Part shown: positions 1,727 through 25,711 of the stretch, one piece after another
Layout: each line of letters begins with the position of its first letter
Position numbering within the stretch: the first letter of the stretch is position 1
Origin: a virus
Reading direction: 5' to 3' (one strand)
DNA length: 25,711 nt
Virus record (IMG/VR): IMGVR_UViG_3300050821_011919
Span: 1-25,711 of that record
Notes under the pieces: model-generated
The model's input: only the letters and a program-made list of their open reading frames with translations
The model's database searches: none
What the model was told of the DNA's origin: nothing
Made by a program: the position numbers and the translations under genes

Positions 1727-1761
1727 TTTTATTCCGACCAACGCAAAGCCGAAGCTCTCTC

Positions 1762-1919
1762 ATGCCGCAGTTCACTTCGAACACCCCGCCAAGGGGAAGG
1801 ATCGCTGCTCGCTCTGCGTACACTTCCTGCCCGGAGAGCGAGGAAGAGGAACTCACTGCCGCATCGTCGCAGAGCCGGTTACTGCTGTTGATTGGTGTGA
1901 ACGATTTAAGGATCGTGGC
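1762..1919 (+). pseudogene. HiPIP-like Cys4 segment with no canonical start in its frame
   Basis: Frame 3 between the neighbouring genes reads VHFEHPAKGKDRCSLC, then VHFLPGE, HCRIVAEPV and AVDWCERF. The cysteines (codons at 1806, 1815, 1857, 1896) are spaced C-x2-C-x13-C-x12-C, and the end closely matches the high-potential iron-sulfur protein signature C-x(6-9)-[LIVM]-x3-G-[YW]-C-x2-[FYW], with Asp in place of Gly. No ATG, GTG or TTG opens this frame. The obvious start, ATG at 1762 behind a pyrimidine tract, is in another frame and would need one extra base within about 15 nt to join. It may therefore be a frameshifted gene, a sequencing error, or a product of ATT (1731) initiation. The frame continues without a stop into the next gene. 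Confidence 0.6.
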
Positions 1920-2135
1920 ATGGCAAAGCTGACCAGCAAACAACGCAACGCGCTCCCGGCGAAGGATTTCGTTTTTCCGAAGTCGCGGAAGTTCCCGATT
2001 GAGGACGCAAATCACGCGCGGGATGCGGAGTCCCGAGCCGCAGCCAAAGGGCCGGGTGTTGAAAAGAAAGTTCGCGCCGCGGTGCACCGGAAGTTTCCGT
2101 CAATTGGGGCGCGGGCGTTTTACGGGGAGACGTAA
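1920..2135 (+). CDS. Small phage protein of the KLT..R.ALP..DF type, AFYG tag
   Basis: A 71-aa basic protein begins MAKLTSKQRNALPAKDF and continues with RKFPIEDANHARDAESR and VRAAVHRKFPSIG. This pattern (ALPxxDF, then FPIxDxxHARxAxxR, then a VRAAVxRKFP helix) is common in small phage proteins and at the ends of some phage head proteins; its function is not established. The start is supported by AAGGA seven bases before the ATG. It ends ARAFYGET, with AFYG two residues from the C-terminus. Its last 16 bases overlap the 3' end of the antisense gene 2120-2392. The frame is open upstream into the HiPIP-like segment, so a fused form is possible. Confidence 0.8.
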   Translation: MAKLTSKQRNALPAKDFVFPKSRKFPIEDANHARDAESRAAAKGPGVEKKVRAAVHRKFPSIGARAFYGET

Positions 2136-2392
2136 GGATGACGGGTGCCCATTGAATCGTATAGCGATTTGTAGCGCTCACCGGTCCGGACGAAGCCGTG
2201 GCCGTCCACGAATACCACACGGTAGACCCAGAAGGGTTCGGGATCAGGCTCCATGTTGAGCCATTCAATGTCAGCAGCTTTGGGCGCGATGATCTCTTTC
2301 GGGAAGCTGTATACGCGGAACGGAAAGGTTCTCACCGCTGCTGATGCCGCAACGCCACCGATAGCGAGCCGTAAGAAACCGCGCCGGTTCAT
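2120..2392 (-). CDS. Small Tat-type signal peptide protein, antisense moron candidate
   Basis: This 90-aa protein starts MNRRGFLRLAIGGVAASAAV, a twin-arginine-type signal (RRGFLR followed by an Ala/Gly/Val-rich hydrophobic stretch). The mature part includes RTFPFRVYSFPKEI and WVYRVVFVDGHGFVRTGERY. I recall similar RTFPFRVYSFP proteins in metagenomic phages, but know no function; export across the inner membrane is the inference. It is the only leftward gene in this part. Its TAA overlaps the + gene ending at 2135 tail to tail. A TATAAT hexamer lies six bases before the ATG, so the transcript may be leaderless. A self-transcribed cargo gene is a reasonable reading. Confidence 0.75.
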   Translation of the reverse strand: MNRRGFLRLAIGGVAASAAVRTFPFRVYSFPKEIIAPKAADIEWLNMEPDPEPFWVYRVVFVDGHGFVRTGERYKSLYDSMGTRHPYVSP

Positions 2393-2398
2393 GGCCGA

Positions 2399-2404
2399 AT
2401 TATA
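2399..2404 (-). promoter_or_regulatory. TATAAT -10 box for the antisense gene 2120-2392
   Basis: Read on the - strand, a perfect TATAAT is followed by TCGGCC and then the ATG at 2392. With the usual 6-7 base spacing, transcription would begin at the start codon itself. No convincing TTGACA-like -35 is seen 16-19 bases further upstream. Confidence 0.5.
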
Positions 2405-2435
2405 GCGCCGGCGTTTTTACGAGGAACCCTGACTC

Positions 2436-3293
2436 ATGCGATTTCACGCACAAAACCTGAACGAAAAGAATGATCGCGTCGTCGGTCCGATGTGGCGGCA
2501 CGGCCGCTGCTGGATCAACGTTCTGCGCTCACAGTGGCGCTTTGAGTGGCTGATCTTCCTGCGGTCGTCGATCGGCATCGTGCTCGACCTGGCTGACTAT
2601 GACGAGGACGCGATCGGCGGCCACGTCGGCATCGGGTTCCTTGCCCTGCATTGGGGCTTTCAGAATCGCAGGCTTCGTCAAGTGATGGAACGGCTGACCT
2701 CGCGGGACAAAGCGCCGCGCGTCCTCGACTGCTGCCAAGTCTGCCGCCATCCTCGATCGGACGGCCGTCACGAACTCCACCCGTTCCAACCGATAACATA
2801 CTGGTCGACCAACGGCCGCAATATCGGACTGCGCTGGTTCGAAGGTTCGCTCTGGGTCGATCTCTGGAACGATCCGATGGAAAGTCGCAGCGTCGATCCG
2901 TGGTGGTGGCATCTCTCGATCTGTCCGATGGATCTGCTGCTGGGTCGCACTCGCTACGAACAAACGGAACTCACGAAAGAGCGCGTCGTCGTTCCCATGC
3001 CCGAGGGCGGCTATCCCGCGACGGTGGAAATTTTCGAAAGCGTCTGGCGCAGGCCTCGCTGGCCCGGAGTCTGGCGGCGGATGATCCGGTCGACAGTCAC
3101 GCCGGACACGCCGATTCCCTTCCCCGGCAAAGGGGAAAGCGAGTACGACTGCGGGGAAGATGCGACTCACTCGATGACTGGCGCATACGACACCGCGCTC
3201 AAAGCAGCGATGGGTCTGAGCGAAAGCGTGATGCGCCGCCGAATCCGGTACGGCGCCGGGTGGAACTATCAGCCCGAAGCTCTGCGTGTCTGA
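2436..3293 (+). CDS. Conserved phage hypothetical protein, 285 aa
   Basis: The sequence is rich in Trp and Arg. An N-terminal part (WRHGRCWINVLRSQWRFEWLIFL, with DLADYDEDAIGGHVGIGFLALHWG) looks beta-rich. Further along come LRWFEGSLWVDLWND, LLLGRTRYEQ, VPMPEGGYPATVEIFESVW, PIPFPGKGESEYDCGEDATHS and a short C-terminal tail. I recognise the set 'lllGrt.y / PMPEG.YPAtv / W.RPRWP / PIPFPGKGE..wDCGeDa' as a family carried by many phages near the terminase or portal; no activity is established for it. The ATG has GAGGA about ten bases upstream and lies 43 bases from the divergent antisense gene. Cytoplasmic, no signal or membrane segment. Confidence 0.8.
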   Translation: MRFHAQNLNEKNDRVVGPMWRHGRCWINVLRSQWRFEWLIFLRSSIGIVLDLADYDEDAIGGHVGIGFLALHWGFQNRRLRQVMERLTSRDKAPRVLDCCQVCRHPRSDGRHELHPFQPITYWSTNGRNIGLRWFEGSLWVDLWNDPMESRSVDPWWWHLSICPMDLLLGRTRYEQTELTKERVVVPMPEGGYPATVEIFESVWRRPRWPGVWRRMIRSTVTPDTPIPFPGKGESEYDCGEDATHSMTGAYDTALKAAMGLSESVMRRRIRYGAGWNYQPEALRV

Positions 3294-3299
3294 ATTTTC

Positions 3300-3497
3300 A
3301 TGCCAGCCGTTTCCCAGAAGCAGCAAATCGCGATGGCCATTGCGGAACACGCGCCCGATAAGCTCTTCGCGCGGAATCGAAGCCTACTCGGCATGAGCCA
3401 TCAGCAGCTTCACGAGTTCGCGTCGACGCCGCGGAAGAATCTGCCGAAGCGCGCACCGAAGGCCAAATCTCGCAACCAAGCGTTCTACGGCGCATGA
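3300..3497 (+). CDS. DUF3008-like small phage protein, AFYG tag
   Basis: The 65-aa protein starts MPAVSQKQQIAMAIAEHAPDKL and has MSHQQLHEFASTPRKNLPKR in the middle. The pairing of an N-terminal MPAxSxxQQ helix with a later L-x-x-F-A-S-T-x-x-x-x-L-P motif matches DUF3008-type small proteins, whose role is unknown. It ends KSRNQAFYGA, putting AFYG one residue from the C-terminus. The ATG lies behind ATTTTC rather than a Shine-Dalgarno site, six bases after the previous stop. The ATG of the next gene overlaps its TGA (ATGA at 3494-3497). Confidence 0.8.
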   Translation: MPAVSQKQQIAMAIAEHAPDKLFARNRSLLGMSHQQLHEFASTPRKNLPKRAPKAKSRNQAFYGA

Positions 3498-3721
3498 GCG
3501 TTCTCCGCCCTCTCGGCTTCTCGAATCCCGGTATGCCCGCGGTGGGCGTCGCGCTCGAAGTCGATTGCCCCGTGTGCCAAGTTCCGGCCGGAGCGAAATG
3601 CGCCGTCAGTAACGGCGAGCGTATTGTTTTGCGCCCGCCCCACGTCGAGCGCGGCCGCAACGCCCGCTGGTCCTCTATGTTCCCCAGCGAGACGATGTAC
3701 CCGAGCGAGAAGACCCTGTGA
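3494..3721 (+). CDS. Phage zinc-finger protein (CPxC...H type)
   Basis: This 75-aa protein has VDCPVCQVPAGAKCAVSNG followed by PPHVERGRNARW. The arrangement CPxC-x6-C ... H-x2-R is the small phage zinc-finger domain often annotated as DNA-binding. The ligands would be Cys-Cys-Cys-His, giving one zinc knuckle; the remainder is short and polar. It is translationally coupled on both sides (ATGA with the upstream gene, GTGA with the terminase gene). Its position directly before the terminase nuclease suggests, but does not show, a role in packaging or in recognising DNA. Confidence 0.75.
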   Translation: MSVLRPLGFSNPGMPAVGVALEVDCPVCQVPAGAKCAVSNGERIVLRPPHVERGRNARWSSMFPSETMYPSEKTL

Positions 3722-4776
3722 ATCCGGCCAATACCAGCTTCCCGCACCCCGGCATCCAGGTGCACAAAAACCAGCACGGCATCACGTGCATGCGCCTGCA
3801 CTACGACGCCGACCCCAATAAGGGCAAAGGGAAAAAGACCTTCGTTCCGGCCATCAACATGGAACTCTCGCCCTGGGCCCTGAAGCAGTACGAGCAGATG
3901 ACCGACCCCACGCTCTACCTGCGCGAGTACGAAATTCAGGCGGAGGCCACGCTCGGCTCGCTGATCTACCAGATGGACGACGAAGCCACGCTCGAAAAAA
4001 GCTTCCCGATCCCACCGACCTGGACCCGGCGCATGTCGCTCGATCCTCATCCCAGCGTGCCACATGCGTTTCTTTGGTGCGCGACCGACCCCTGGGGCGA
4101 TCGCTGGTACTACCGCGAGCTGTGGCCCTCGAAAGTTTGCTTCCGCTATGACGGCCTGCGACTGCTCGGGGCAAGCGGGCCGTGCCCTCCGGACGATCCC
4201 GTGGTGCGCATCAAGGATTATGTCGAAACCGTGAAGTGGCTGGAGTCTTCGGAGAATCCGGAGAACGTCGACGCCAAGGCCAACCGCTTCGACGAAACAA
4301 TCTTCGCCCGCGTCATCGACTACACCGCGCGCGCCTTCGGCAAAGGCACCAACGACGATCCCGAGCAGCCGAACTTTCAAACCCGCTACGAGCAGTACAT
4401 GAGCCTGCCCGACACACGGCTCTCCTGCCCGCTGTTCCAGGATGCGAAAAAAGACCACGACGTGGGCTTCGAGATGGTCAACGCCGGGCTGAAGCCGCGG
4501 CGGACGGTCGGTTCCGACGACAAGCCGCGGAAACGCTCGGCGATTCACATCTTCGCCGACAAGTGCCCCGAATTGATCTGGCAGATTCGGAATCTGCGCC
4601 GCGCCCGCCTCACGCCGGCGCAAGCGACGCAGAAAGACCCCAGCGGCAAAGCGGTCCAGGTCCGCGCCCACCAGTGCGACAACCTGCGCTACATCGAGAT
4701 GTCGAACCCGATCTACATCGCGCCCTCGAAGCCGTGGCCGAAGCAGAGCCGGCTGGCGGAAGGGTTCAGCTACTAG
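3718..4776 (+). CDS. terL (C-terminal domain): Terminase large subunit, nuclease domain only
   Basis: The 352-aa product corresponds to the part of a large terminase after the ATPase. It opens with the linker typical of TerL (ITCMRLHYDADPNKGKG, then LYLREYEIQAEATLGSLIYQ) and continues into an RNase H-like nuclease: LWCATDPWGDRWYYRELW (Asp about 124), RVIDYTARAFG (Asp about 201), SAIHIFADKCPELIWQIRNL and HQCDNLRYIEM (Asp about 321, the usual third acidic position). There is no Walker A, Walker B or coupling motif, and complete TerL proteins are usually 450-650 aa. The GTG start overlaps the zinc-finger stop, so the gene is genuinely short here. The ATPase half must lie outside this window or be supplied separately. 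Function: cutting the DNA concatemer during packaging. Confidence 0.8.
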   Translation: MNPANTSFPHPGIQVHKNQHGITCMRLHYDADPNKGKGKKTFVPAINMELSPWALKQYEQMTDPTLYLREYEIQAEATLGSLIYQMDDEATLEKSFPIPPTWTRRMSLDPHPSVPHAFLWCATDPWGDRWYYRELWPSKVCFRYDGLRLLGASGPCPPDDPVVRIKDYVETVKWLESSENPENVDAKANRFDETIFARVIDYTARAFGKGTNDDPEQPNFQTRYEQYMSLPDTRLSCPLFQDAKKDHDVGFEMVNAGLKPRRTVGSDDKPRKRSAIHIFADKCPELIWQIRNLRRARLTPAQATQKDPSGKAVQVRAHQCDNLRYIEMSNPIYIAPSKPWPKQSRLAEGFSY

Positions 4777-4779
4777 GAC

Positions 4780-4983
4780 GTGGGGATAATCCAACGACAT
4801 TTCGGCGATCTGGTTTTCGTGGTGTCGGTCTCGGAAGCGCCACGCAGGTCGCGGAAACATCCGAACGACGTTCTCTCGCGTTCGTGGTCTGGGGTTCGAC
4901 TCTCGGCCCATTGCGCGAAGGACAAGCACTGGCAATGCACAGCGAAGCGTTGCGTCTGCCCGTGCCACAAAAGCGGCCATTGA
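4780..4983 (+). CDS. Small Cys/His-rich protein (CVCPCH tail)
   Basis: The predicted protein is 67 aa from a GTG three bases after the terminase stop. The C-terminal third, HCAKDKHWQCTAKRCVCPCH, has five Cys and three His in about 20 residues and is a plausible zinc site. The first half is featureless and basic. The next gene starts five bases after its stop, as expected in a packed operon. No Shine-Dalgarno is obvious and competing antisense frames exist, so confidence is moderate. Confidence 0.5.
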   Translation: MGIIQRHFGDLVFVVSVSEAPRRSRKHPNDVLSRSWSGVRLSAHCAKDKHWQCTAKRCVCPCHKSGH

Positions 4984-4988
4984 TAGAT

Positions 4989-5156
4989 ATGCCTGAAATA
5001 ACCAAAGAACTAGCGTGCGCCGAATTCGTCGTCGTGAATGGAATCAAGGTCGTCTGTGGCGAGGCGGAAAGTAAGCACACGCCCGAGGCGGCCCGGGCGG
5101 ACGTCGGGATGGATCACAGGTTCGTCCCCGCCACGTGGGACGCTGAAGACGATTGA
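4989..5156 (+). CDS. Small acidic hypothetical protein, 55 aa
   Basis: The ATG at 4989 opens MPEITKELACAEFVVVNGIK, followed by VVCGEAESKHTPEAARADVG and ending in an acidic tail (WDAEDD). The short beta-strand-like core and acidic end look like a genuine compact protein. Only the segment from 4989 makes sense; the open frame extends far upstream through the terminase gene but that part is a shadow. No family recognised. No clear ribosome site; it probably relies on coupling with the gene before. Confidence 0.6.
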   Translation: MPEITKELACAEFVVVNGIKVVCGEAESKHTPEAARADVGMDHRFVPATWDAEDD

Positions 5157-5169
5157 ATTCTTAAATCGC

Positions 5170-5304
5170 ATGAGCAACTCGAACCGACACACCTGCACGA
5201 AAGCCGCGGCTGGCTGGCAAAAGCCCGGCCCATGCCGCGAGTGTGAATCCGAGAAACGCTCGCAGGAATTCTTTTCGAAGCTGTTTCGTAAGCCCACCGA
5301 ATAA
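5170..5304 (+). CDS. Tiny Cys-containing protein, 44 aa
   Basis: The product reads MSNSNRHTCTKAAAGWQKPG, then PCRECESEKRSQEFFSKLF and a short basic end. The pattern C-x12-C-x2-C with a nearby His could bind a metal. It lies six bases before the portal start and leaves almost no unused DNA, which is the main argument that it is translated. Function unknown. Confidence 0.55.
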   Translation: MSNSNRHTCTKAAAGWQKPGPCRECESEKRSQEFFSKLFRKPTE

Positions 5305-5310
5305 CTTCTC

Positions 5311-7554
5311 ATGGCCACACCAACAGGCAGCTCCGGCGTCGTCTCCGACATCATCCAGCGTCGCGACGAGTCCAAAAAATGGCTCCGCTACAACTACTGG
5401 GATGAGTGGGTCGAGACCTGGCGCATGATCAAGTGCCGGACCAAACCCCTGCGCAAAACCGATTCCGCCGGCAAAGAGACCAACGAGGAAGACAAATCCC
5501 GCACCAACGTCGAATCCGGTCTCGCCAATCTGATCTACCGCAAGAACGTCGCCCGCCTGAGCGCCCAGCCCTACACTCTCCGCGTGCGCGGCGGCAACGA
5601 TCCCTCTGCAGCTCCACGCTTGAGCTCCCTTCTCTCCCATCAATACGACCGCTCCCAGGAACGAACTGAAGACGTCCGCGTGCGCATGGCCGCGGAGTCG
5701 CTCGGCATCGGCATCTCGAAGCTGTACTGGGATTTCATCTCGCGCACGATGGTGTTCCGCCAGGCGATTTTGAAAGAGGGCAAGATCGTCAATCGCGACC
5801 GCGCCGCCATGATGCGCTTCCGCCAGGCGCCCGACGCCGAGATTCAGCAGGCGGTCGAAGAGTACGGCGCGAACATGACCGACGACGAAGTGAATGAGTT
5901 CATGGCGAAGTCCGGCGCCGAGATCACCGTCCCGCAAGTCGTCGACAAATACGAAGGCCCGCGGCTGAAGTGCTGCTTCCCCGGCGACGTGTACTGGGAG
6001 CCGTTCGCGCGCACCCTGCGCCAGTCGAGCTTTGTGACCGAGTGCTATCGCGAGTCCGACCTGTGGCTCAAGAAAATGCTGGGCGTGAAGTACAAGGACC
6101 CGGAGACCGGGCAGCAGACGCCGGCGTTTGATCCCGACGCCGTAGCCGGCCTGGTGCGGCTCGATCCGGAGCCGGTCGTGGTCAAAGGCGAGTTCCAGGA
6201 GCTGAAGGATTTGTTCCGCACCGCGGTGGGCAAGCAGGACCAGGTGCAGTATCAGTTCCCGCGCAACCTGCGCGTCCGCAAGATGTACGACATCCTCGAA
6301 GAGCACAAGCAGGATGACGACGGGCGGATGTGGATCACCTGGGTTTCGGAGAACTATCGCGACAAGGTTCTGGGCAAGATGCCCTACCCGTTCAACTTCT
6401 ACGGCGATACGGCCTTCACCGACGAAGTGCCGCTGCCCGATCTGATCGACGCGATCGGCGACTCGACGCCGCGCCTGCTGCGCTTCATGTTCATGCTGTT
6501 CAACCTGCAGCATTGCCAGAATTTTGATTACGTCACCAACCTGATCCGCGTGACCTATCTCGCACCCGCGGGACTCGACTTCGATACCGACATGCTGGAG
6601 CGCGGCATCTTCCGCCTAGTGCGCGTCTCGGGCGGCAATCCCGCATCGCTGCAGCCCGTTCCCACGCCGCCGCTGCCTCCCGGAGCGATGGAGCGCGGCG
6701 CCTCGATCATGCAGCTGATCGGCATGTTTGAACCCTCGTTGCAGACCACCACGGACGGAACCACCTACAGCCCGCAGTCTTCAAAGACCGCCACCACCGC
6801 GGTGTTGAACGCGAAAGCCGCCGACGTGCTGCTCGCCTTCAAGATGGAATCGCGCAACTTCTATCTCTACCAGCTGGGCATGAAGAAAATCTGGATGAAC
6901 CAGCAGATGGCGGACATGGACAAGAGCTGGGAAATCCCGTCGAAGTTCTTCGGCTCGCAGATGCGCGATTACTTCCAGTCGAAGGGAATCGATCCCAACA
7001 AGTTCCTGGAACAACAGCAGCAACAGGCGGCACAGATTCCCTGGATCATCACCGATCAGTCGGGCGTGATCTCGACCGTGAAGCTCGATCCCATGGAAAT
7101 TCAGGAAGACTTCGAGGTCGAACCGGAGTCCGGCTCCTATATGGCCGTGGACGACGATCTGCGCCGGCAGGCCGCGGTCGAACTGGACCAGGTCGCGATG
7201 CAGGCTCCGGACGTGCTCGATCGGCGCAAAGTCGTGACCAATCACCTGAAGACCATCAAGGGCATCGACAATCCGGAAGACTTCCTCGCCCCGGTGAAAA
7301 CGACTCCACCACCTCCGCCGGTGAAAGTGAACGTCAGCCTTACCGGAAAGATCGAGGACGTGCCGGGCGCCATGAACGCGCTGCTGCAGGAGCTGGGCCT
7401 GCCGCCCTCGCCCGATCTTGACGAGATGCAGCAGACCAACACGCTGAAGCGCATCAGTGAATCCGCGGATCACGCGAGCAACCTGCTATCGACGGGGCAG
7501 GAAGACGAAGAGGGCAGCACGCCGGAGCACGAAGCGGAGACGGTGACGGCGTGA
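5311..7554 (+). CDS. Portal protein, podovirus/P22 size class
   Basis: At 747 aa this is close in length to the P22 portal (725 aa). Position (after the terminase nuclease, before scaffold and capsid) and general features support the call: an N-terminal helical part beginning SDIIQRRDESKKWLRYNYWD, a conserved-looking core (TNVESGLANLIYRKNVARL, PGDVYWEPFARTL), the segment PYPFNFYGDTAFTDEVPLPDL, a long helical region with SSKTATTAVLNAKAADVLLAF, and a Gln-rich helix (FLEQQQQQAAQ). The last 100 residues are Pro/Glu-rich and probably flexible. Twelve copies would form the vertex ring through which DNA enters and leaves. The start ATG follows CTTCTC, not a Shine-Dalgarno. The stop overlaps the next GTG. 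Confidence 0.87.
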   Translation: MATPTGSSGVVSDIIQRRDESKKWLRYNYWDEWVETWRMIKCRTKPLRKTDSAGKETNEEDKSRTNVESGLANLIYRKNVARLSAQPYTLRVRGGNDPSAAPRLSSLLSHQYDRSQERTEDVRVRMAAESLGIGISKLYWDFISRTMVFRQAILKEGKIVNRDRAAMMRFRQAPDAEIQQAVEEYGANMTDDEVNEFMAKSGAEITVPQVVDKYEGPRLKCCFPGDVYWEPFARTLRQSSFVTECYRESDLWLKKMLGVKYKDPETGQQTPAFDPDAVAGLVRLDPEPVVVKGEFQELKDLFRTAVGKQDQVQYQFPRNLRVRKMYDILEEHKQDDDGRMWITWVSENYRDKVLGKMPYPFNFYGDTAFTDEVPLPDLIDAIGDSTPRLLRFMFMLFNLQHCQNFDYVTNLIRVTYLAPAGLDFDTDMLERGIFRLVRVSGGNPASLQPVPTPPLPPGAMERGASIMQLIGMFEPSLQTTTDGTTYSPQSSKTATTAVLNAKAADVLLAFKMESRNFYLYQLGMKKIWMNQQMADMDKSWEIPSKFFGSQMRDYFQSKGIDPNKFLEQQQQQAAQIPWIITDQSGVISTVKLDPMEIQEDFEVEPESGSYMAVDDDLRRQAAVELDQVAMQAPDVLDRRKVVTNHLKTIKGIDNPEDFLAPVKTTPPPPPVKVNVSLTGKIEDVPGAMNALLQELGLPPSPDLDEMQQTNTLKRISESADHASNLLSTGQEDEEGSTPEHEAETVTA

Positions 7555-7862
7555 AGGTTGTTCTCCGGAAGAACGCCCTCTATTTCGAATGTCCGGCACA
7601 GAACTGTGGCAATGTCCGCGTCCCACTGGACGGAGAGCCTCACTGGAACTGGAATGGATCACTCGATAAACCGACGATCACGCCCTCGGTAAAGATTCAA
7701 TGGGACTTCGGCGAAGAACCGAACCGTACGCACAATATTTGCCACTTCAATGTCATCGACGGAGTGCTTCACTTCTGCGCCGACTGCACGCATGAGCTGA
7801 AGGGACAGAAGATTCCCATGCCCGATGTGGCCCCGGATTTCGAGAAGTTCTTAGCAGATTGA
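7551..7862 (+). CDS. DUF6527-like small phage protein
   Basis: This 103-aa protein contains ECPAQNCGNVRVPL, HWNWNGSLDKPTITPSVKI, HNICHFNVIDGVLHF and CADCTHELKGQKIPMPD. The sequence W.W.G..dKPT.tPSv, then CH..v.dG...f..DCtH.L.Gq...mPd is the pattern I associate with DUF6527 proteins, which recur next to phage head genes and have no known activity. The Cys pairs and conserved CH/CTH suggest a metal-stabilised beta fold. GTG start overlapping the portal TGA (GTGA), so translation is coupled. Confidence 0.8.
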   Translation: MKVVLRKNALYFECPAQNCGNVRVPLDGEPHWNWNGSLDKPTITPSVKIQWDFGEEPNRTHNICHFNVIDGVLHFCADCTHELKGQKIPMPDVAPDFEKFLAD

Positions 7863-7863
7863 G

Positions 7864-8097
7864 ATGGACCTGACCGACATCGAGCGCCAGACCCTCGCTA
7901 CCTTTCTGGCCACCCCCGGTCCGGTGCGATCCGCGATCACTAAATTTGCCCAGAACCAGCGCGCCCACTGCGAACGCATGAGCGCCGACGCCTTGCGCAC
8001 CATCCCGCGACAGATCGAAACCGCCTGCGATCAGGCGGCCAAAGCGGAAGTTTACGCGACGCTGATCGATGAGCTGCAGCGCTTCGCGGAGAAATAG
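7864..8097 (+). CDS. Small helical hypothetical protein, 77 aa
   Basis: Almost the whole protein can be drawn as amphipathic helices (TDIERQTLATFLATPG, RSAITKFAQNQRAHCERM, IETACDQAAKAEVYATLIDELQRF). It starts one base after the previous stop, in the sequence TGAGATG. No domain recognised. It may be a small head accessory or regulatory protein; only its place between portal and scaffold speaks for this. Confidence 0.65.
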   Translation: MDLTDIERQTLATFLATPGPVRSAITKFAQNQRAHCERMSADALRTIPRQIETACDQAAKAEVYATLIDELQRFAEK

Positions 8098-8098
8098 A

Positions 8099-8136
8099 TT
8101 TCGAGTTTCATTCCGAGCTTCGGGTTTCGAGTTTCA
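8099..8136 (+). repeat. Direct repeat TTTCGAGTTTCA
   Basis: Two exact 12-bp copies, 8099-8110 and 8125-8136, stand in the short gap before the gene at 8164, with a related GAGCTTCGGGTTTC between them. Function unknown. Confidence 0.6.
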
Positions 8137-8163
8137 GAAAACGAGAAAAGGGGAACTGATTGT

Positions 8164-8493
8164 ATGGCAGAGAAAATGAAAAAAGGTGAGTTGCGCCACA
8201 TCCGGATCGAGCCATCGGAAAACGGCGGCGCCGTGGTGACCGTGCACAAGAAACAAACCTCCGCCAAGGCCCAGAAAGGCCCGTGGCTTTCCGACTCCAC
8301 CGAAGAGATTCACACGCATCCCACGCCGCAAGCCGCGGGCGTGCACGTGAAGAGCCTGCTCGAACAGCACTTCGATAAAGCCGCGCCAGCCGCCAGCGAT
8401 CGCGCCGCCGACAAAAAGCAGTGGGGCAGCAAGACAGCCACCGGCAAAAGCGAGCCGATCTCGGACGACGGCCCGGACGCGCAGCAAGCTTAA
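8164..8493 (+). CDS. Hypothetical basic protein, 109 aa
   Basis: The ATG is preceded by AAAAGGGGAAC, a fair ribosome site. The first 60 residues (KKGELRHIRIEPSENGGAVV, TVHKKQTSAK) appear to form a small beta-sheet domain with a Glu/His-rich stretch (EEIHTHPTPQAAGVHVKSLL). The C-terminal 40 residues are Ala/Lys/Asp-rich and likely disordered. I have the impression of a small family found beside phage portal genes, but cannot name it. The TAA overlaps the stop of the antisense gene 8490-8648. Confidence 0.7.
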   Translation: MAEKMKKGELRHIRIEPSENGGAVVTVHKKQTSAKAQKGPWLSDSTEEIHTHPTPQAAGVHVKSLLEQHFDKAAPAASDRAADKKQWGSKTATGKSEPISDDGPDAQQA

Positions 8494-8648
8494 GACTTGT
8501 CGCGGACGTCGGGAACTATAGCTTTCCCGCACTTCCGGCACGCGAGTCGCGGCTTGTCCACCGGACTCGGCATGCCGATCTGAAAAAAGTCGTGCTCGTT
8601 GTACTGACATTCACGCGGCGGCGATGAAACGCTTTTCTTGTTTTTCAT
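8490..8648 (-). CDS. Small antisense zinc-ribbon-like protein, 52 aa
   Basis: Reading the - strand from 8648 gives MKNKKSVSSPPRECQYNEHD, then FFQIGMPSPVDKPRLACRKC and GKAIVPDVRDKS before TAA. The set C14, H19, C37, C40 (CRKCGK) forms a plausible single zinc-binding site. The start lies behind a TAAAAT box six bases upstream, and its stop overlaps the + gene stop within TTAA. It is the second of three leftward single genes with the same layout. Fully intergenic position and a coherent metal site make it likely to be real; function unknown. Confidence 0.65.
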   Translation of the reverse strand: MKNKKSVSSPPRECQYNEHDFFQIGMPSPVDKPRLACRKCGKAIVPDVRDKS

Positions 8649-8654
8649 GCGCCC

Positions 8655-8660
8655 ATTTTA
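8655..8660 (-). promoter_or_regulatory. TAAAAT -10 box for the antisense gene 8490-8648
   Basis: On the - strand TAAAAT is followed by GGGCGC and the ATG at 8648, the same six-base spacing as at 2399-2404. No clear -35. It would give a transcript with little or no leader. Confidence 0.4.
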
Positions 8661-8673
8661 GACCCAAGTTTCG

Positions 8674-8693
8674 CCGGAGAAACCACGCTCCGG
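8674..8693. other. Short hairpin CCGGAG / CTCCGG
   Basis: A 6-bp perfect inverted repeat with an 8-base loop lies between the antisense start at 8648 and the scaffold gene at 8726. No T-run follows. It could separate the two divergent units or sit in the scaffold mRNA leader. Confidence 0.35.
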
Positions 8694-8725
8694 TATTCAC
8701 GCACCAAGCAAGTTAGGAGAACATC

Positions 8726-10033
8726 ATGACGCCTGTTGAAACCGCACCGGTAACCACCCCGGAAAGCGCGCCGGCAACCACTCCGGCCGCCGACGGCTTC
8801 AGTAGCTTTTTGGGAGTCGAAGCTGAGACTCTGCCCTCGCTCCAGCCGCGCGAAACCCCGGCACCTGGCGGCGCTGAACCCGAAGGCTCGCAAGAGTCCA
8901 CGGAAGAAGCAGGAGCGGGCGAAGAACAAGCTGAACTTCCCGAAGAGACCATAGACGGCGAACCCGCAACTGAACTCGAACCCCAAGGCGAGGAAACGGA
9001 CGACAACTGGCTCCCCACCGAGCAGGCGAAGGAGTTTCCCCTTGAGGTTCTGCAGCAGTACGCGGAAAAGCGCGGCTATGACTGGGCAAAGATTTCCGCC
9101 GATCCCACACTTCAGCGCCTGCTGAAGGACAAACTCAACACCGACATCTACGTCGAGCAGATGCGGCAGGAGACCGAGAATCAGGGCTTCGAGGAAACCA
9201 CGCCCGAAGAGACTGAGCTACCGGCCGATCCCGCAGCAGCTGCCGATCCGCGCGCCGAGTATCGCCAGCGGGTCGAGACCATCGCCCAGAAAATTGACCC
9301 CGCGGCCACCGAAGCGCTGGGCAAGGAGCTGCTCGCTGCTTTTGGCGTCACCACCGACGTCAAGAAGCTGGAGCAGATGCTCGCCGATCCCAAGTTGACG
9401 CCCGAGGCCCGGCAGGAAGTCCAGTCTGCCATCGCCTTGTCGCGCAACGCGGGAGTGGTGGGCACGACCCTCGCCAAAGGCGCGATCGACCTGATCCTGA
9501 CTTCCCTTCCCGAAATTCTTCCCGCGGTCATGGAGTCGGTTGCTCCCGGACTGCTCGGAGCCTACCAGGGATGGAGCCAGGTGCAGGCCGCCAGCGGCGC
9601 CTGGAACGAAGTCAGCCAGGCACGCGACGGCCGCGGTCAGCCCGTGTATTCCAACCTTCCGCAGTATGGGACGAAGGAATTTGCGCAGCTGACGGTGCGG
9701 GCGGAGCAGCAGTTGGGTCTGGCCAAGGGCGCACTCGGCGAGATGGCGGGACGGGGATTCATCCGCGAGGCCTACACCATGGTGGCGCAGGTCGCCAGCG
9801 GTCAGAGAGTCTCCCCGCAAGCGGTGTCAAGAGCGGTGAGTGTGGGACGGCAGCAGGAACGCAATCAGCAGGAGCGCCGCGCTACCGGGCGCGCACTGGG
9901 AGCCGGGCAACAGAGCCGACAGTTTGGACAGGAAGAACCGGCGGATGCGGTTCGCGACGAATTGCGCAGGGCGATCGCGGAGCAGAACTCCACCTCGACC
10001 CCCTTCGCGGGCGCAAGAACCGTAGGGTCGTAA
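8726..10033 (+). CDS. Probable capsid scaffolding protein
   Basis: The 435-aa protein directly precedes the major capsid gene, the standard place for scaffold. Residues 1-100 are acidic and Pro/Thr/Glu-rich (EEAGAGEEQAELPEE and similar). A helical part follows (KEFPLEVLQQYAEKRGYDWA, VETIAQKIDPAATEALGKEL). A more hydrophobic segment comes at about 250-290 (TTLAKGAIDLILTSLPEILP), and the last 90 residues are Gln/Arg-rich and helical. Scaffold proteins are typically acidic, helical and poorly conserved, with a basic C-terminal capsid-binding end, and this fits. AGGAG stands eight bases before the ATG. No protease motif is seen. Confidence 0.72.
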   Translation: MTPVETAPVTTPESAPATTPAADGFSSFLGVEAETLPSLQPRETPAPGGAEPEGSQESTEEAGAGEEQAELPEETIDGEPATELEPQGEETDDNWLPTEQAKEFPLEVLQQYAEKRGYDWAKISADPTLQRLLKDKLNTDIYVEQMRQETENQGFEETTPEETELPADPAAAADPRAEYRQRVETIAQKIDPAATEALGKELLAAFGVTTDVKKLEQMLADPKLTPEARQEVQSAIALSRNAGVVGTTLAKGAIDLILTSLPEILPAVMESVAPGLLGAYQGWSQVQAASGAWNEVSQARDGRGQPVYSNLPQYGTKEFAQLTVRAEQQLGLAKGALGEMAGRGFIREAYTMVAQVASGQRVSPQAVSRAVSVGRQQERNQQERRATGRALGAGQQSRQFGQEEPADAVRDELRRAIAEQNSTSTPFAGARTVGS

Positions 10034-10098
10034 GCGACCTTCCGAAACTCTTACCATTTTCCCCCTCCAAATGAGGACGGCAGAAAAGGAACCTTTCC

Positions 10099-11343
10099 TT
10101 GGCTGAGCAAAATATCCGCACCTTTCAGGACTATCAGACCGAAGGCACGCTGGTTCGCGACGTAGCGATCGACATGCTGCTGCTCGAACCCGACCGCACC
10201 CCGCTGTACGTCCTCACCAACAATTCGAAGCGCAAAAAGACCGTCTACAACCCGATCTTCGAATGGCCCGAAGACCAGGATCTCCCGATGCTGGGCACGG
10301 TCTCAAACGGCACGACCAACCTCAGTTCGGTTGCCACCAACATTCCCGTCGTCGATGTCACCATCTTCGGCGTGAACGATATGGTGCAGATCCCGACCGG
10401 TGGCGACATCGGAACCGGTATCGAGGAAGTGGCGCTGATCACCGCCGTCACCATCGGAACCGGCACCCCGTCGACCACCGCGTATCAGATCGGCGCCGTC
10501 GCCGGCACGATCACGGTCACCCGCGGCTTTGCCGGAACCACCCCGGGCACGGTCGGTGCGACCCAGTCGCTGCGCATCATCGCCACGGCCGCAACCGAAG
10601 GCGGAGCGATCCAGACGCCGCGTTCGCCCTATGTGACGCTGAAAACTTCGGCGGCTCAGATCTTCGAGCAGCCGGTGCAGATCACCCGCATGGGCGCGTC
10701 CACCCGGACCTACTACGACCGCAACGAGCGAGCCCGACTGCAAATGCTCGCCATGCGCCGGGCGAAGCTCGAAATCGAGGACGCCGGCATCTTCGGCGTG
10801 TACTCGCAGACGGTCAACGGGACTTCCACCCGCCTGACCTCGATGGGCGTGCGCTCGATCATCTCGCCGTTTGTCACCGACATGGGCGGGACGGTCACCT
10901 ATCAGTCCTTCCTGCAGGCGAATGAATTCACCTTCCGTTACGGTTCGCCGCAGAAATTGCTGATCGCCTCGCCGCTGGTCAAGACCGCGCTCGACTACTA
11001 CGCGGCCAACAAGCAGCTGGTGAAACCGGACATCGATCTGTTCGGCGTGAGCCTGAAGAAGTTCGTGACCTCGAACGGTACGTTCCTGATCGCCAACAAC
11101 TTCAACATGGGCGATTTCAACGCTTCGACCAACTACAGCTACGAAGCGCTGGCGATCGACCTGCCGTCGATCGAGTTCTGCCCGCTGTCCGACAACGGGA
11201 TCTCAAACGACACCCAGCTGATCACCAACTACGACACGACCAATCCGAAGCTGATCAAGGATCTGGTCTACACCCAGGCGGGATGGAGAGTCCGGCATCC
11301 GGCAAGGCACGCAAGATTTACTAACTGGACGGCGTTCCAATAG
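10099..11343 (+). CDS. Major capsid protein (SU10/HK97-fold type)
   Basis: This 414-aa protein starts at TTG (10099) behind AAAAGGAA. The beginning (RTFQDYQTEGTLVRDVAIDM, then TPLYVLTNNSKRKKT and FEWPEDQDLP) matches the N-terminal pattern of the SU10-type capsid family: TPL..ll....k......EW.eD. A Gly/Thr-rich insertion with FAGTTPGTVGATQ follows, then FEQPVQITRMGASTRTYYDR, RRAKLEIEDAGIFGVYSQ, the P-domain-like SPQKLLIASPLVKTALDYY, and a C-terminal TNYDTTNPKLIKDLVYTQ. Hundreds of copies would form the head. Scaffold lies upstream and two strong hairpins lie downstream, consistent with a highly expressed transcript end. Confidence 0.85.
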   Translation: MAEQNIRTFQDYQTEGTLVRDVAIDMLLLEPDRTPLYVLTNNSKRKKTVYNPIFEWPEDQDLPMLGTVSNGTTNLSSVATNIPVVDVTIFGVNDMVQIPTGGDIGTGIEEVALITAVTIGTGTPSTTAYQIGAVAGTITVTRGFAGTTPGTVGATQSLRIIATAATEGGAIQTPRSPYVTLKTSAAQIFEQPVQITRMGASTRTYYDRNERARLQMLAMRRAKLEIEDAGIFGVYSQTVNGTSTRLTSMGVRSIISPFVTDMGGTVTYQSFLQANEFTFRYGSPQKLLIASPLVKTALDYYAANKQLVKPDIDLFGVSLKKFVTSNGTFLIANNFNMGDFNASTNYSYEALAIDLPSIEFCPLSDNGISNDTQLITNYDTTNPKLIKDLVYTQAGWRVRHPARHARFTNWTAFQ

Positions 11344-11351
11344 TTTACGAG

Positions 11352-11385
11352 TGGCGTGCGGGGTGCTCGTGTGTCCCGCACGCCA
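11352..11385 (+). terminator. Strong GC hairpin after the capsid gene
   Basis: TGGCGTGCGGG (11352-11362) pairs perfectly with CCCGCACGCCA (11375-11385) across a 12-base loop, nine bases after the capsid stop. No T-run follows, so it may protect the mRNA 3' end or act with the next hairpin rather than terminate alone. Confidence 0.6.
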
Positions 11386-11396
11386 TAGCGTAAAGA

Positions 11397-11466
11397 GAAG
11401 CTTGCCGCGCGTCCCAAGGGTTTTCGGGGGAGGACTCCAAACGACGCGCGGCAGGCTGCTGTTTTT
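11397..11466 (+). terminator. Rho-independent terminator after the capsid gene
   Basis: GCCGCGCGTC (11404-11413) pairs perfectly with GACGCGCGGC (11443-11452). Pairing extends outward through CTT/AGG and AG/CT with a single mismatch. TTTTT follows at 11462-11466. The loop is long (29 bases) and contains GGGTTTTCGGGGGAGG. Placed at the end of the head block, it probably stops or attenuates transcription after the capsid gene. Confidence 0.65.
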
Positions 11467-11490
11467 CGATTCACGACGTCTCTATGTGGA

Positions 11491-11760
11491 TTGCAAGTCA
11501 TAAAGTCGCTGGCTTCATACGCCACAGCCCAGGATCCCAGCGAGATCGGATTGGTCGAGGTGCCCATTTTTCTTCTGGCCAGGGCTTGTCTCCGGGTGCA
11601 GATGGCCTACATCTTTTTGCGCCGCGGCGAATTTCGGAAGGCTCGGACTGAGCTGATCTCGGCCGATCCGGTGAGAGCGGCGATCCGAGAGCAAATCAAA
11701 ATACAAAACGAACACGCGCGATTTTTGGCGCAGCAAGAGAAGGAGCATTTATGCACGTAG
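11491..11760 (+). CDS. Small helical hypothetical protein, 89 aa
   Basis: Codons from a TTG at 11491 give a helix-rich protein (FLLARACLRVQMAYIFLRRG, EFRKARTELISADP, REQIKIQNEHARFLAQQEKE). No ATG is available upstream in frame and no ribosome site is obvious, so the true start is uncertain; an in-frame TTG or GTG further in, at about codons 21-23, could be used. It is the first gene after the terminators. Its end overlaps the next ATG by 10 bases and carries that gene's AAGGAG site. Function unknown. Confidence 0.55.
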   Translation: MQVIKSLASYATAQDPSEIGLVEVPIFLLARACLRVQMAYIFLRRGEFRKARTELISADPVRAAIREQIKIQNEHARFLAQQEKEHLCT

Positions 11761-12284
11761 CAGCGGAAAACTGGAAAGCGAAATGCCTCGCCTGTGGCGA
11801 AGAAGTCACCTTCACCCGCGACGAGCAGCACCCGAACGGCAACTGGCAGTGCTCGAAGCTGCCCAAACATCACAAGGTCCAGGAGCGCACCTACTTCCAC
11901 CTGGGCGGCGCGCATATTCAAAACTGGCGCGAGCGCCGCGGCTGGGGGCCGCAGATCATTCTCCGGGCCGGTTATTCGATCACCGATCCGCGGACCGGCG
12001 TGTCCTCGCTTGAGCCGACGGTGCGGATCTGGTTTTCCGGGCAGCAGCTCACCACCGAAGATCCGGAGATCCAGTTCTTGCTCGAGACCAAAAACGATGC
12101 CTGCATCGCCTGGGGCGAAGAAGGCAAAAAGAACTGGCAGCGCATCTATCTGACGCAAGAGCAGCAGAAGGATCTCGCCAACGCCGAACTCGAGTCGCTG
12201 AACCGGCAGATCCGGGACGGCAATGCGTTGCTGGCCGACGTCCAGTCGCGCACCAAGTCGAAGCAGACCGCCGCGGCCAGTTAG
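11751..12284 (+). CDS. Hypothetical protein with N-terminal zinc-ribbon-like site, 177 aa
   Basis: A good AAGGAG site precedes the ATG. Residues 12-15 are CLAC, and a Cys at about 34 in GNWQCSKLPKHHK with two adjacent His supply further possible zinc ligands. The middle (HLGGAHIQNWRERRGWGPQI) is followed by beta-rich sequence, and by a C-terminal coiled-coil-like helix (EQQKDLANAELESLNRQIRDG). This may be a virion accessory protein, but no family is recognised. It overlaps the gene before by 10 bases. Confidence 0.7.
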   Translation: MHVAAENWKAKCLACGEEVTFTRDEQHPNGNWQCSKLPKHHKVQERTYFHLGGAHIQNWRERRGWGPQIILRAGYSITDPRTGVSSLEPTVRIWFSGQQLTTEDPEIQFLLETKNDACIAWGEEGKKNWQRIYLTQEQQKDLANAELESLNRQIRDGNALLADVQSRTKSKQTAAAS

Positions 12285-12296
12285 TCGTCTTCCTCT

Positions 12297-12485
12297 GTGC
12301 CCGTGCCGAAACTGAAGATCGATCGCGCGCACTCGCTCGCGCTGCTTGCGGGCAAACCTGTCACCGTGAAGATTCCGCCCAACGCGAAAGCGATCACGCT
12401 TCTCCTTGATATGCCGAACGTATCCGCCGATCTCGACAGCCTCGCCAAAGTGATCGACGTATTTTTCAACGGGAGGAAAGCTTAA
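12297..12485 (+). CDS. Small hypothetical protein, 62 aa
   Basis: GTG start at 12297, with a second GTG at 12303 also possible; the sequence before it (GTCTTCCTCT) is pyrimidine-rich without a Shine-Dalgarno. The product (KLKIDRAHSLALLAGKPVTV, then KIPPNAKAITLLLDM and LDSLAKVIDVFFNG) looks like a compact alpha/beta protein. It abuts the next GTG directly (TAA then GTG). No family recognised. Confidence 0.65.
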   Translation: MPVPKLKIDRAHSLALLAGKPVTVKIPPNAKAITLLLDMPNVSADLDSLAKVIDVFFNGRKA

Positions 12486-12881
12486 GTGTCTACCTGCCGT
12501 GGATGCGGGGCCGACGCGCTGCGAACCTGCGCGCGTTTCGGCCCCGATATGCAGTTACTCAAGGAAGTCTGCCCTGCCTGCAAGCCGGAAGTGTTTCAGG
12601 GCGTGAAGGTGACCGCGCCGTCGGACAAAAAGATCTGGGACGGCTACGAAGTCGAACCGGAGCGCTACTACTCCCGCGACGGGGAAAATGTCGTCCGCGC
12701 CAAAGACGAGCTGCGCCAGGACGTCTGGGACGAATTCAACCGGGATCCGGACGAAGAAGCGCGAGCGAAAAAGCGCGCCACACGGAGAACTGAGCCGCTG
12801 TCCGCCACTGAGATCGAGAACGCGAACGCCTGGGGACAGAACGTGCTGCGCCCGGTGCTCGAGGAAGTGGCCAGGAGCTAA
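12486..12881 (+). CDS. Cys-rich protein with two CxxC pairs, 131 aa
   Basis: GTG start immediately after the preceding TAA, with GGAGG about ten bases upstream. The N-terminus, STCRGCGADALRTCARFG, and the later VCPACKPEVF give a CxxC-x7-C ... CxxC zinc-ribbon-like site. The rest is acidic and charged (DEFNRDPDEEARAKKRATRR) with a C-terminal helix. It overlaps the antisense gene 12878-13066 by four bases at the stops. A nucleic-acid-binding or structural zinc protein is possible; there is no direct evidence for either. Confidence 0.65.
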   Translation: MSTCRGCGADALRTCARFGPDMQLLKEVCPACKPEVFQGVKVTAPSDKKIWDGYEVEPERYYSRDGENVVRAKDELRQDVWDEFNRDPDEEARAKKRATRRTEPLSATEIENANAWGQNVLRPVLEEVARS

Positions 12882-13066
12882 GTCGGCTGCCCTCGATTGC
12901 GCATCAGCCAATCGAGGCGTTTCAGCCAACCGTCAGCAAATGCGTAAACCTCTTCAAGAGCGTCGTAAGCGTCCGGTCCTTCCACCTTCCGAACCTTTTC
13001 GAAGATGATCTTCGCGTCCATCAGAAGGCTGTTTTCCGTGCATTGCAAAACATTGTCGCCGTCCAT
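12878..13066 (-). CDS. Small antisense helical protein, 62 aa
   Basis: From the ATG at 13066 the - strand reads MDGDNVLQCTENSLLMDAKI, then IFEKVRKVEGPDAYDALEEV and YAFADGWLKRLDWLMRNRG. It is acidic to neutral, helical and hydrophobic-patterned, the composition of a true small protein. The longer frame opening at 13258 runs through the glycosyltransferase and is not favoured. A TAAAAT box eight bases before the ATG, and a stop overlapping the + gene, repeat the layout of the other two antisense genes. Function unknown; moron-type cargo is the inference. Confidence 0.7.
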   Translation of the reverse strand: MDGDNVLQCTENSLLMDAKIIFEKVRKVEGPDAYDALEEVYAFADGWLKRLDWLMRNRGQPT

Positions 13067-13074
13067 AGCTGCCG

Positions 13075-13080
13075 ATTTTA
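13075..13080 (-). promoter_or_regulatory. TAAAAT -10 box for the antisense gene 12878-13066
   Basis: On the - strand TAAAAT, then CGGCAGCT, then ATG at 13066. A start point 6-7 bases downstream of the box would leave a leader of at most one or two bases. No good -35 seen. The box lies only nine bases from the divergent glycosyltransferase ATG. Confidence 0.4.
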
Positions 13081-13088
13081 TCTGACCC

Positions 13089-14189
13089 ATGCCCCTGCGT
13101 CCTGAAAATCTCGAGATCGCCGATTCGGTTCGCCTGCTCGACAAACTGAAGAGCGAGAGCCCGACCGGATTGAACAAGCTCGACGTCATCGACGCGGAGA
13201 AGCGGCTCACGCGGATCCTGAAAACTTCCGAAGGCCGCGAAGCGCTCAAGCGCGTCACCGGATTGCACGAAGCCGTCTTCGCCGCCGACGTCGAGCAGGA
13301 GCAGGAAAAGCTTCCGATCGTCGCCGTGCTGATGCCAAGCTACCGCCTCCCTGCCCCGCAGGCCTGGGAAGGGCTGAACAAGATGCTGCGCGCCAGCATG
13401 AATGTCTGCCGGCCGTTCATGGAGCCGACGATCCGCCAGTCGGTCGTGCACTGGTCGCGCAACTATTGTTTGTCGCTGCTGCTGAAGAGCATGAAGCCGT
13501 GGGATTACGTGCTGTTCCTCGATGACGACATCGTCATGCCGATCGATGGGCTTGCGAAGATGCTGGCGCACAAGAAAGACGTCGTCGCCGCGGCCTGCAC
13601 GGTTCGCGTGGATCCGCCGATGCCGAACTTCCGCACCTACGATCCGGAGCAACGGTTGTTCTGCCCCTGTCTTGACTGGTCGCGCGAAGGCCTCCTCGGA
13701 GAAGACATTCTGCTCGGCGCCGGCACGGGCGCGATGCTGATCTCCAAAGCCTGTCTGACGCGGGTAGCGGAGTATTACATCAACTGCAAGTACGAACAAA
13801 AGTTCTATGGTCTCGCCGGCCAGGCACTCGACAAGTTGCAGACCGGCCGGCAGCGGATCGCCAAGCAAACGTCCGACTTCTGGTGGTTCGAGTTCCTGAA
13901 GCAGCCGGACGGCATGGGCGAATTCGGCGAGGATATTTCGTTCTGCTTCAAGTGCATCGAGCTGGGGATCCGGATCCACGTCGACACCACGGTGCGGCCG
14001 AAGCACATGGGCGACTACGGCTTCAACCTGGACGACTACCAGGACTGCCGCGCGGACTTCAAAGAGCAGCTCGCCGCGCGCGCCACGCCGATGGTCAACT
14101 CGGAACTGATCGTTTCCCCGATGCAGCCTGCCCCGATGCAGCAGCCGGTCGTTTCTGAGCTGGAGAAAGAGGAGCCATGCCCGGCATAG
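13089..14189 (+). CDS. GT-A fold glycosyltransferase
   Basis: The 366-aa protein has a 70-residue helical N-terminus and then a GT-A-type catalytic domain. This starts with PIVAVLMPSYRLPAPQAWE (nucleotide-sugar strand) and includes YVLFLDDDIVMPIDGLAKML, where Asp145-147 supply the DxD metal/UDP-sugar motif. Further conserved-looking parts are LGAGTGAMLIS, FWWFEFLKQP and GEDISFCFKCIELGIRIHVD followed by PKHMGDYGF, typical of the acceptor/catalytic end. The last 35 residues are Pro/Met/Gln-rich. Its position among head-tail genes suggests a role in glycosylating a virion protein or a host surface or DNA target; the acceptor is unknown. No Shine-Dalgarno precedes the ATG. Confidence 0.85.
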   Translation: MPLRPENLEIADSVRLLDKLKSESPTGLNKLDVIDAEKRLTRILKTSEGREALKRVTGLHEAVFAADVEQEQEKLPIVAVLMPSYRLPAPQAWEGLNKMLRASMNVCRPFMEPTIRQSVVHWSRNYCLSLLLKSMKPWDYVLFLDDDIVMPIDGLAKMLAHKKDVVAAACTVRVDPPMPNFRTYDPEQRLFCPCLDWSREGLLGEDILLGAGTGAMLISKACLTRVAEYYINCKYEQKFYGLAGQALDKLQTGRQRIAKQTSDFWWFEFLKQPDGMGEFGEDISFCFKCIELGIRIHVDTTVRPKHMGDYGFNLDDYQDCRADFKEQLAARATPMVNSELIVSPMQPAPMQQPVVSELEKEEPCPA

Positions 14190-24592: not shown

Positions 24593-25711
24593 ATGAAACC
24601 GCCTTTCTTCCAAACGCTTCGCCTCAGCCTCGCCGGTGTGACCTGGACTCTGGTCGCCTGCGCTCTGTTCCTCTGCGCTCCGGAAGTTTTCGGGCAGACC
24701 GTCCCGGTGCAATCCACGCTCACCGACGGAAGCGGCAGCGCGCCCGGCGGAAAACTCTACCTGCATTTCGCGCTCTATAACTGCGGCGCAAATATTCCGG
24801 TGAACTCGTCGACGTCGTCGATCGTCAAGCGCACCTTCGACGTGGTCGCAAATTCGAGCGGCGTGGCCGCGGGCGCCGTCGTACCGAACGACCTGATCAA
24901 ATGCGGCAACGTGGTCTCGACGCAGTGGACCGTCTCGGTGATGTCGTCGGACAATTCCCCGCTGACCGAGGCGCAGACGTATTTCATCTGCTCATCCGCA
25001 GCTACGGGAGTCACCTGCGCGCAACCCTCGCCAGGCGCAACGTTTGATATCTCGACTGCGCTGCCTTCGAGCGTCGCTCCGCCGGCGCCGGGATTTATTC
25101 CGCTCTTCGACAATCCGGTCCAGAGCCAGACCCTCAATCAGCCCGGCGGAACGCAGACCAATTTTATCGGCACGATGAACTTCTGCTCGGCGACCGTGCT
25201 TTGCGGCGGTGGATCCGGATCGGCGGAGATCACGGTCAACGGCGGAAGCGCGCTGGCTTTCCCTGTCAACTTTCAGAACGGAAGCAACACAACCGTCACC
25301 AATCCCACCGGATCGAATGTGCAGTACAACGTCGCGAGCGCGACCAGCTCCGTGCTGGGCGTGCTCGAACTGACGGGCGATTTCGGGGGATCCGCGACAG
25401 CGCCGACCGTGGTCAACGGATCGAACATTGTCAACAATTCGATCACCAGCAGCGGTCTTTCGCATACGGGTATCACCGCGGGCAGCTACACCAACGTCAA
25501 CGAAACCGTCGATGCATCGGGACGGATCACAGCGATTTCGAACGGAAGCGGCGGATCCGGATGCAGTCTCGCGAGCACCGTCAACAACGCAATGGTCTAC
25601 GTCAACGGATCCGGCAACTGCACCTCGAATCTGGATCTCACCTTCACCGATAGCGTGAATGCGAAAGTCACGATTGGCAGCAGCGGAGGCAACCCCGGCA
25701 TCGTTGACCTG
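24593..25711 (+). CDS. Tail-fibre-like protein with signal peptide (3' end outside)
   Basis: The frame is open from ATG 24593 to the window end (373 codons, incomplete). Residues 1-35 form a secretory signal: basic start (MKPPFFQTLRLSL), hydrophobic run (VTWTLVACALFL) and a probable signal peptidase I site after EVFG (V at -3, G at -1, Q at +1). An Ig-like region follows (about 36-165, with KLYLHFALYNCGANIPV, VVPNDLIKCGNVVSTQWTV, TYFICSSAATGVTCA). Then come Gly/Ser/Asn-rich repeats ending in a fibre pattern: LELTGDFGGSATAPTVV, ITSSGLSHTGITAGSYTNVN and ETVDASGRITAISNGSG. That 'LtGD.gG.a.aPtv / aGsYTNv.vtVda.GRIta' signature is common in phage fibres. A signal peptide on a fibre is unusual. Confidence 0.75.
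   Translation, partial: MKPPFFQTLRLSLAGVTWTLVACALFLCAPEVFGQTVPVQSTLTDGSGSAPGGKLYLHFALYNCGANIPVNSSTSSIVKRTFDVVANSSGVAAGAVVPNDLIKCGNVVSTQWTVSVMSSDNSPLTEAQTYFICSSAATGVTCAQPSPGATFDISTALPSSVAPPAPGFIPLFDNPVQSQTLNQPGGTQTNFIGTMNFCSATVLCGGGSGSAEITVNGGSALAFPVNFQNGSNTTVTNPTGSNVQYNVASATSSVLGVLELTGDFGGSATAPTVVNGSNIVNNSITSSGLSHTGITAGSYTNVNETVDASGRITAISNGSGGSGCSLASTVNNAMVYVNGSGNCTSNLDLTFTDSVNAKVTIGSSGGNPGIVDL

Follow-up and report, generated by a model that had tools for sequence, protein, structure and literature searches.

Putative self-promoted antisense units in a soil phage, one combining a Tat-type leader with an exchangeable, capsid-like tail

The sequence analyzed here, a 25.7-kb linear virus record from IMG/VR that represents a soil phage, was examined over its whole stretch of 25,711 nucleotides (hereafter the window), and a whole-window search of INPHARED revealed no near relative among cultured phages. 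Three minus-strand ORFs in the window, referred to as P1, P2 and P3 (Table 1), probably represent accessory, leaderless and self-promoted antisense units, of which P1 would consist of a constant Tat-type leader and an exchangeable tail resembling the major capsid protein (MCP). In the proposed mechanism, three moron-like units would have been inserted counter to the late operon, and host RNA polymerase would read each unit from its own promoter, with the -10 box located 6-8 bases before the start codon. The transcript would start right at the ATG, or no more than a few bases from it, and would be translated as a leaderless mRNA. The counter-orientation may uncouple the units from the late operon and permit early or constitutive expression, which convergent late transcription would later oppose.

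Table 1. Antisense ORFs of the window, their promoter-like boxes and related features
Feature	Position	Strand	Basis or comparison
P1, 90-aa ORF, Tat-like leader and variable tail	2120..2392	-	ORF and family
P1 conserved 34-aa leader, MNRRGFLRLAIGGVAASAAVRTFPFRVYSFPKEI	2291..2392	-	family alignment
P1 tail piece IEWLNMEPDPEPFWV; weak likeness to residues 24-38 of the MCP (IDMLLLEPDRTPLYV)	2225..2269	-	alignment, shuffle p 0.03
TATAAT, -10-like box, gap of 6 to P1 ATG	2399..2404	-	box scan
Convergent 16-base overlap of P1 with ORF 1920-2135	2120..2135	.	ORF coordinates
P2, 52-aa ORF, CxxC and upstream C/H pair	8490..8648	-	ORF
TAAAAT, -10-like box, gap of 6 to P2 ATG	8655..8660	-	box scan
P3, 62-aa ORF, alternative in-frame ATG at 13090	12878..13066	-	ORF and codon score
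TAAAAT, -10-like box, gap of 8 to P3 ATG	13075..13080	-	box scan
SU10-type MCP gene	10099..11343	+	PF17236, E 3.7e-25
Block of ~1.57 kb: ORF 1920-2135, P1 and ORF 2436-3293	1729..3298	.	L002/L003: ~10 bases instead
P2 interval	8481..8658	.	L002/L003: ~57 bases, unrelated sequence
P3 interval	12764..13085	.	L002: different rightward 139-aa ORF

All elements of the layout given in a preliminary description of this DNA were confirmed in the sequence, namely the three minus-strand ORFs with their ATG codons, the boxes at 6, 6 and 8 bases, and the stop overlaps of 16, 4 and 4 bases with plus-strand ORFs (P1 with 1920-2135, P2 with 8164-8493 and P3 with 12486-12881). The hexamer TAWAAT was absent from the plus strand and occurred four times on the minus strand, where three of the four were the boxes of P1, P2 and P3. 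TAWAAT followed by ATG after 5-9 bases was observed three times in the window, compared with 0.125 expected from a first-order Markov simulation. The fourth minus-strand hexamer, a TAAAAT at 25166, was located within a rightward ORF, and no start codon followed it after 5-9 bases. Because a -10 box lies 6-8 bases before each ATG, the transcripts are predicted to start at or near the ATG and therefore to be leaderless. No Shine-Dalgarno sequence (GGAG, GAGG, AGGA or AAGG) was found near the starts in the 70-base upstream regions of the three ORFs, and the antisense relatives in which P1 stands alone likewise showed none near the start. A consensus scan revealed no -35 element at any of the three, and no terminator-like site was found at their 3' ends, the window total of such sites being equal to the shuffled expectation.

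Leaderless bacterial genes carry TANNNT approximately 12 bp before the start codon (Zheng 2011, PMC3160421), and a -10 box adjoining the ORF has been described for leaderless genes of Deinococcus-Thermus (PMC12340547). The boxes of the window were similarly placed, at 12, 12 and 14 bases before the start when counted from the first T. In contrast to these systems, which are known for cellular genes, the arrangement here marks counter-oriented phage units, and no report of such a layout marking counter-oriented phage cargo was found in the libraries and papers searched. The stop overlaps were rejected as a special signature of insertion: the antisense units of the P1 family partly overlap their neighbors and partly leave gaps, which is the ordinary geometry of compact convergent genes.

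The box layout was found to recur in related phages. Besides the relatives first found with P1, the pattern RxxWPFRV gave a second set of 19 or 20, and the P1 family comprised 46 members; L125, a match to the WPFRV pattern, is not a member of the family. Units were assigned as antisense or co-directional according to the strands of their neighbors, with the contexts sorted by hand and some of the members related to each other. Where P1 stood alone against its neighbors, TANNNT was present 6-9 bases before the start in 9/9 cases (the window, L018, L019, L024, L025, L036, L041, L126 and L137). Where P1 was the second gene of an antisense unit, the box preceded the first gene and not P1 in all six cases (L021, L031, L033, L038, L127 and L138), a count in which the upstream search brings extra freedom; the first gene ended a few bases from the P1 start in five of these six units, and L038 contained an additional intervening gene. 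Altogether, the first start codon had a -10-like box 6-9 bases ahead of it in 15/15 antisense units, compared with 4/30 co-directional members (L015, L026, L037 and L043), with Fisher p values of 1e-8 for all antisense units and 3e-6 for the units of P1 alone. In L037, the box comes after an apparent intrinsic terminator.

Outside the P1 family, the enrichment was smaller than inside it, but it was present. In particular, TANAAT was found at 5-9 bases in 3/28 small isolated antisense genes, window P3 being one of the three, compared with 3/699 genes within runs (p 0.001). Additionally, 13 of the 560 antisense ATG starts fitting between genes carried the box, compared with approximately 2.4 expected per five-base bin, although this count takes in members of the P1 family. 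Isolated antisense ORFs not belonging to P1, with TANAAT 6-9 bases before the ATG, were also observed at L065:11822-12187, L072:12881-13132 and L078:14983-15288. The box statistics and the recurrence are in line with the earlier proposal of a repeated layout with independent promoters and leaderless or near-leaderless transcripts, and the predicted leaderless, self-promoted expression of the units is well supported at the level of sequence. Self-expressed cargo in uncultured phages may be recognizable by a simple, testable rule, in which the first start codon of a counter-oriented unit is preceded by a -10 box at a distance of 6-9 bases.

From its sequences, the P1 family is a previously unnamed phage protein family with a constant leader and an exchangeable tail. 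The leader contained RRxF in 46/46 members and PFRV[YF]S in 45/46, and showed 73% amino-acid identity, with identical codons at only 38% of the identical residues. Amino acids kept over saturated synonymous sites indicate selection at the protein level and an old leader; the same saturation ruled out the leader as a recently spreading DNA module. The leader reads as a Tat-type signal, and Tat targeting is suggested by an invariant RRxF, a weakly hydrophobic stretch and subsequent basic residues, as in Tat signal peptides (PF10518, TIGR01409). In contrast to those peptides, the 12 residues past the hydrophobic stretch (RTFPFRVFSFP) were conserved like the signal itself, the cleavage site was not clear, and most members scored under the curated cut-offs. 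The Tat-type label given earlier to the window protein therefore stands for the family and its RRxF motif; P1 of the window itself is below both cut-offs, with 13.3 of 22.7 bits for PF10518 (Pfam) and 12.2 of 16.7 for TIGR01409 (NCBIfam). No relatives of P1 were found in INPHARED, an alphaproteobacterial leader motif gave no match in a search with little power for queries of such length, and an AlphaFold model of P1 alone was uninformative (pLDDT 41). The libraries and papers searched contained no earlier report of the family, and literature searches found no phage Tat leaders with capsid-like tails.

Beyond the leader, P1 was unalignable across the family. Alignments within each phage indicate that the tails resemble short pieces of the MCP of the same phage and, in a few members, its terminase. 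For the window, a weak resemblance to its own MCP is suggested, as the tail ranked this protein first of 22 own proteins and first of 30 MCPs with a Z of 2.4-3.0. In profile searches, the tails matched an HK97-type capsid for L043 and, weakly, for L018, and clear matches to own capsid proteins annotated by profile were found for L021, L023, L026, L027, L031 and L046. The tails of L037 and L038 clearly matched own MCPs that were assigned by homology to profile-annotated ones, and in the second set the tails of L118, L122, L126 and L138 matched their own MCPs. The own MCP was the top match of the tail in 19/30 phages when own proteins of at least 100 residues were compared. The MCPs of 12 phages had served as seeds, several of them picked via tail matches, and were tested apart to limit circularity; among the 18 non-seed phages, the own MCP ranked first in seven (combined p 6e-5). 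The mean Z of tails was 5.6 against own MCPs and 1.1 against MCPs of other phages, with a permutation p < 5e-5 (0/20,000 as high, seeds included). Several members (L024, L030, L117 and L137) broke this rule.

The phages of L123 and L130 are approximately 97% identical around P1, and their P1 leaders and downstream flanks align at 88-100%, while P1 codons 33 to ~100 are unrelated. Because the whole tail was replaced and the leader and flanks were kept, the tail represents an allelic cassette. The MCPs of the two phages are 97.5% identical despite the different tails, and tail diversity is therefore not a simple reflection of the capsid of the same phage. In the same pair (L148 versus L160), further short blocks upstream of P1, at distances of ~1050-600 and 200 bases, were also replaced entirely. 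A partial second copy of the L036 tail, 91% identical in protein, was also observed just upstream of P1 (L078:5987-6127, L036:3420-3560) and perhaps reflects a recent copy event. In polymorphic systems, a constant trafficking N-terminus is joined to an exchangeable C-terminus (PMC3482391). The P1 family is similar in its constant leader and in the replacement of the whole tail at one locus; in contrast, its tails are like pieces of the own capsid and not like toxin domains, and no immunity gene was identified.

The most likely role of P1 would be that of a membrane- or envelope-directed capsid mimic acting against competing phages or against capsid-sensing host defences. Some bacterial defences are known to be set off by the MCP, as in capsid-sensing systems such as CapRel (PMC9712102), and MCP-like decoys would therefore have a purpose; the likeness to CapRel-type defences lies in the MCP as trigger, and no link between them and P1 was found. 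A broader reading, in which a widespread system joins the Tat-type leader to swapped mimics of the own capsid, or sometimes terminase, and expresses them from its own promoters as decoys or interfering proteins in phage conflict, is put forward only tentatively. The P1 family, with capsid-like tails swapped between near-identical phages, was missing from the libraries searched, and it would make capsid-based conflict, whether between phages or with host defence, directly testable.

Rather unlikely, in our view, is the alternative that the tails are functionless debris of the most abundant late gene, recombined behind a leader that works by itself, for example by occupying the Tat translocase. 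In its favor, the tail pieces derive from differing MCP regions, in an order that, as read by eye, is reversed relative to the MCP in L122, L128 and L135, and the terminase was instead matched by the tail of L015 (clearly) and by that of L137. However, the likeness was kept at the protein level, the frames stay open over 46-110 residues in nearly all members, and two independent tails at a single locus both carry the capsid-like motif HPxQA.

The predicted gain and loss of these loci between relatives was observed in L002 and L003, whose MCPs are 96% identical in protein to that of the window. The P1 and P2 sites were collapsed in both relatives and the P3 site was replaced in L002 (Table 1), and neither phage contained an antisense ORF with a box at the P1, P2 or P3 site. 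Because P1 and P2 are missing from close relatives and another gene occupies the P3 site, the units behave as accessory cargo. In the L002 record, TGCTAGAAT was found 6 bases before an ATG (L067:5089), which opens a short rightward stretch among the leftward genes of the early region. P1-P3 resemble phage morons in that they are small, gained or lost between relatives and predicted to have their own promoters. Unlike morons, they run against the operon with a leaderless -10 box at the start codon, and they showed no terminator and no sign of lysogeny.

This resemblance bears on a further alternative, that the units are morons of lysogenic conversion, silent in lytic growth and acting in the prophage state, for example by changing the envelope against superinfection. 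Independent promoters and an accessory distribution would match classic morons, and a twin-arginine leader would route the product to the envelope. We nevertheless consider this improbable, and the prophage-state expression suggested earlier was not borne out: a tyrosine integrase was missing from the window and from 46 of the 52 records, being present in six (the records are fragments, and the search covered integrases of the tyrosine type), and a search of ~85,000 species genomes with a few exact peptide patterns found no copy of the P1 leader or of this MCP. The suggestion of an acidobacterial host is guesswork and was given no weight as evidence.

Very unlikely is a role of the boxes as promoters of regulatory RNAs antisense to the late operon, with the open frames being incidental; promoter-like boxes opposite late genes and convergent overlaps would suit such RNAs, but all of the units are positioned where an ATG or GTG begins an open frame, the leader of P1 is conserved as protein with saturated synonymous sites, and the overlaps with neighbors extend over just 4-16 bases.

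Among all six frames, the minus frame scored highest for codons at P1 (7.3), P2 (3.3) and P3 (12.6). For P2, the margin over the next frame was narrow (3.3 versus 3.1), and the coding evidence is weak. A simple gene caller predicted P3 and missed P1 and P2, and the alternative start of P3 lies upstream of its TAAAAT box. P2 and P3 are orphans: scans of IMG/VR revealed no homologues, profile searches gave no family match, and comparison with the phage's own proteins showed no convincing similarity. Their earlier descriptions as a zinc ribbon (P2) and a helical protein (P3) are consistent with the sequences but gained no family match or relatives in their favor. Spurious ORFs beside spurious boxes, as the orphan status of P2 and P3 and the gene caller's omissions might suggest, are hardly credible as an overall explanation given the box statistics, the conservation of the P1 family and the recurrence of the layout in a second phage set collected with a different sequence pattern, while P2 alone may have arisen by chance.

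Two further features of the window were observed. The terminase large subunit (3718-4776), with 352 aa, is short, and its match to the PHROG profile is confined to a late part of the profile, with the ATPase part not located. Additionally, five window proteins, encoded by the ORFs ending at 1726, 2135, 3497, 20664 and 24585, contain a C-terminal tag of the AFYG type (PAFYGDFGM, RAFYGET, QAFYGA, SAFYG and SAFYG), often after a Gly/Pro/Ser-rich stretch, and the tag was also found in the SU10-type relatives L002, L070 and L086. FYG within the last eight residues was observed six times among 1180 called proteins, compared with 0.6 expected, and the tag is possibly a virion sorting tag.
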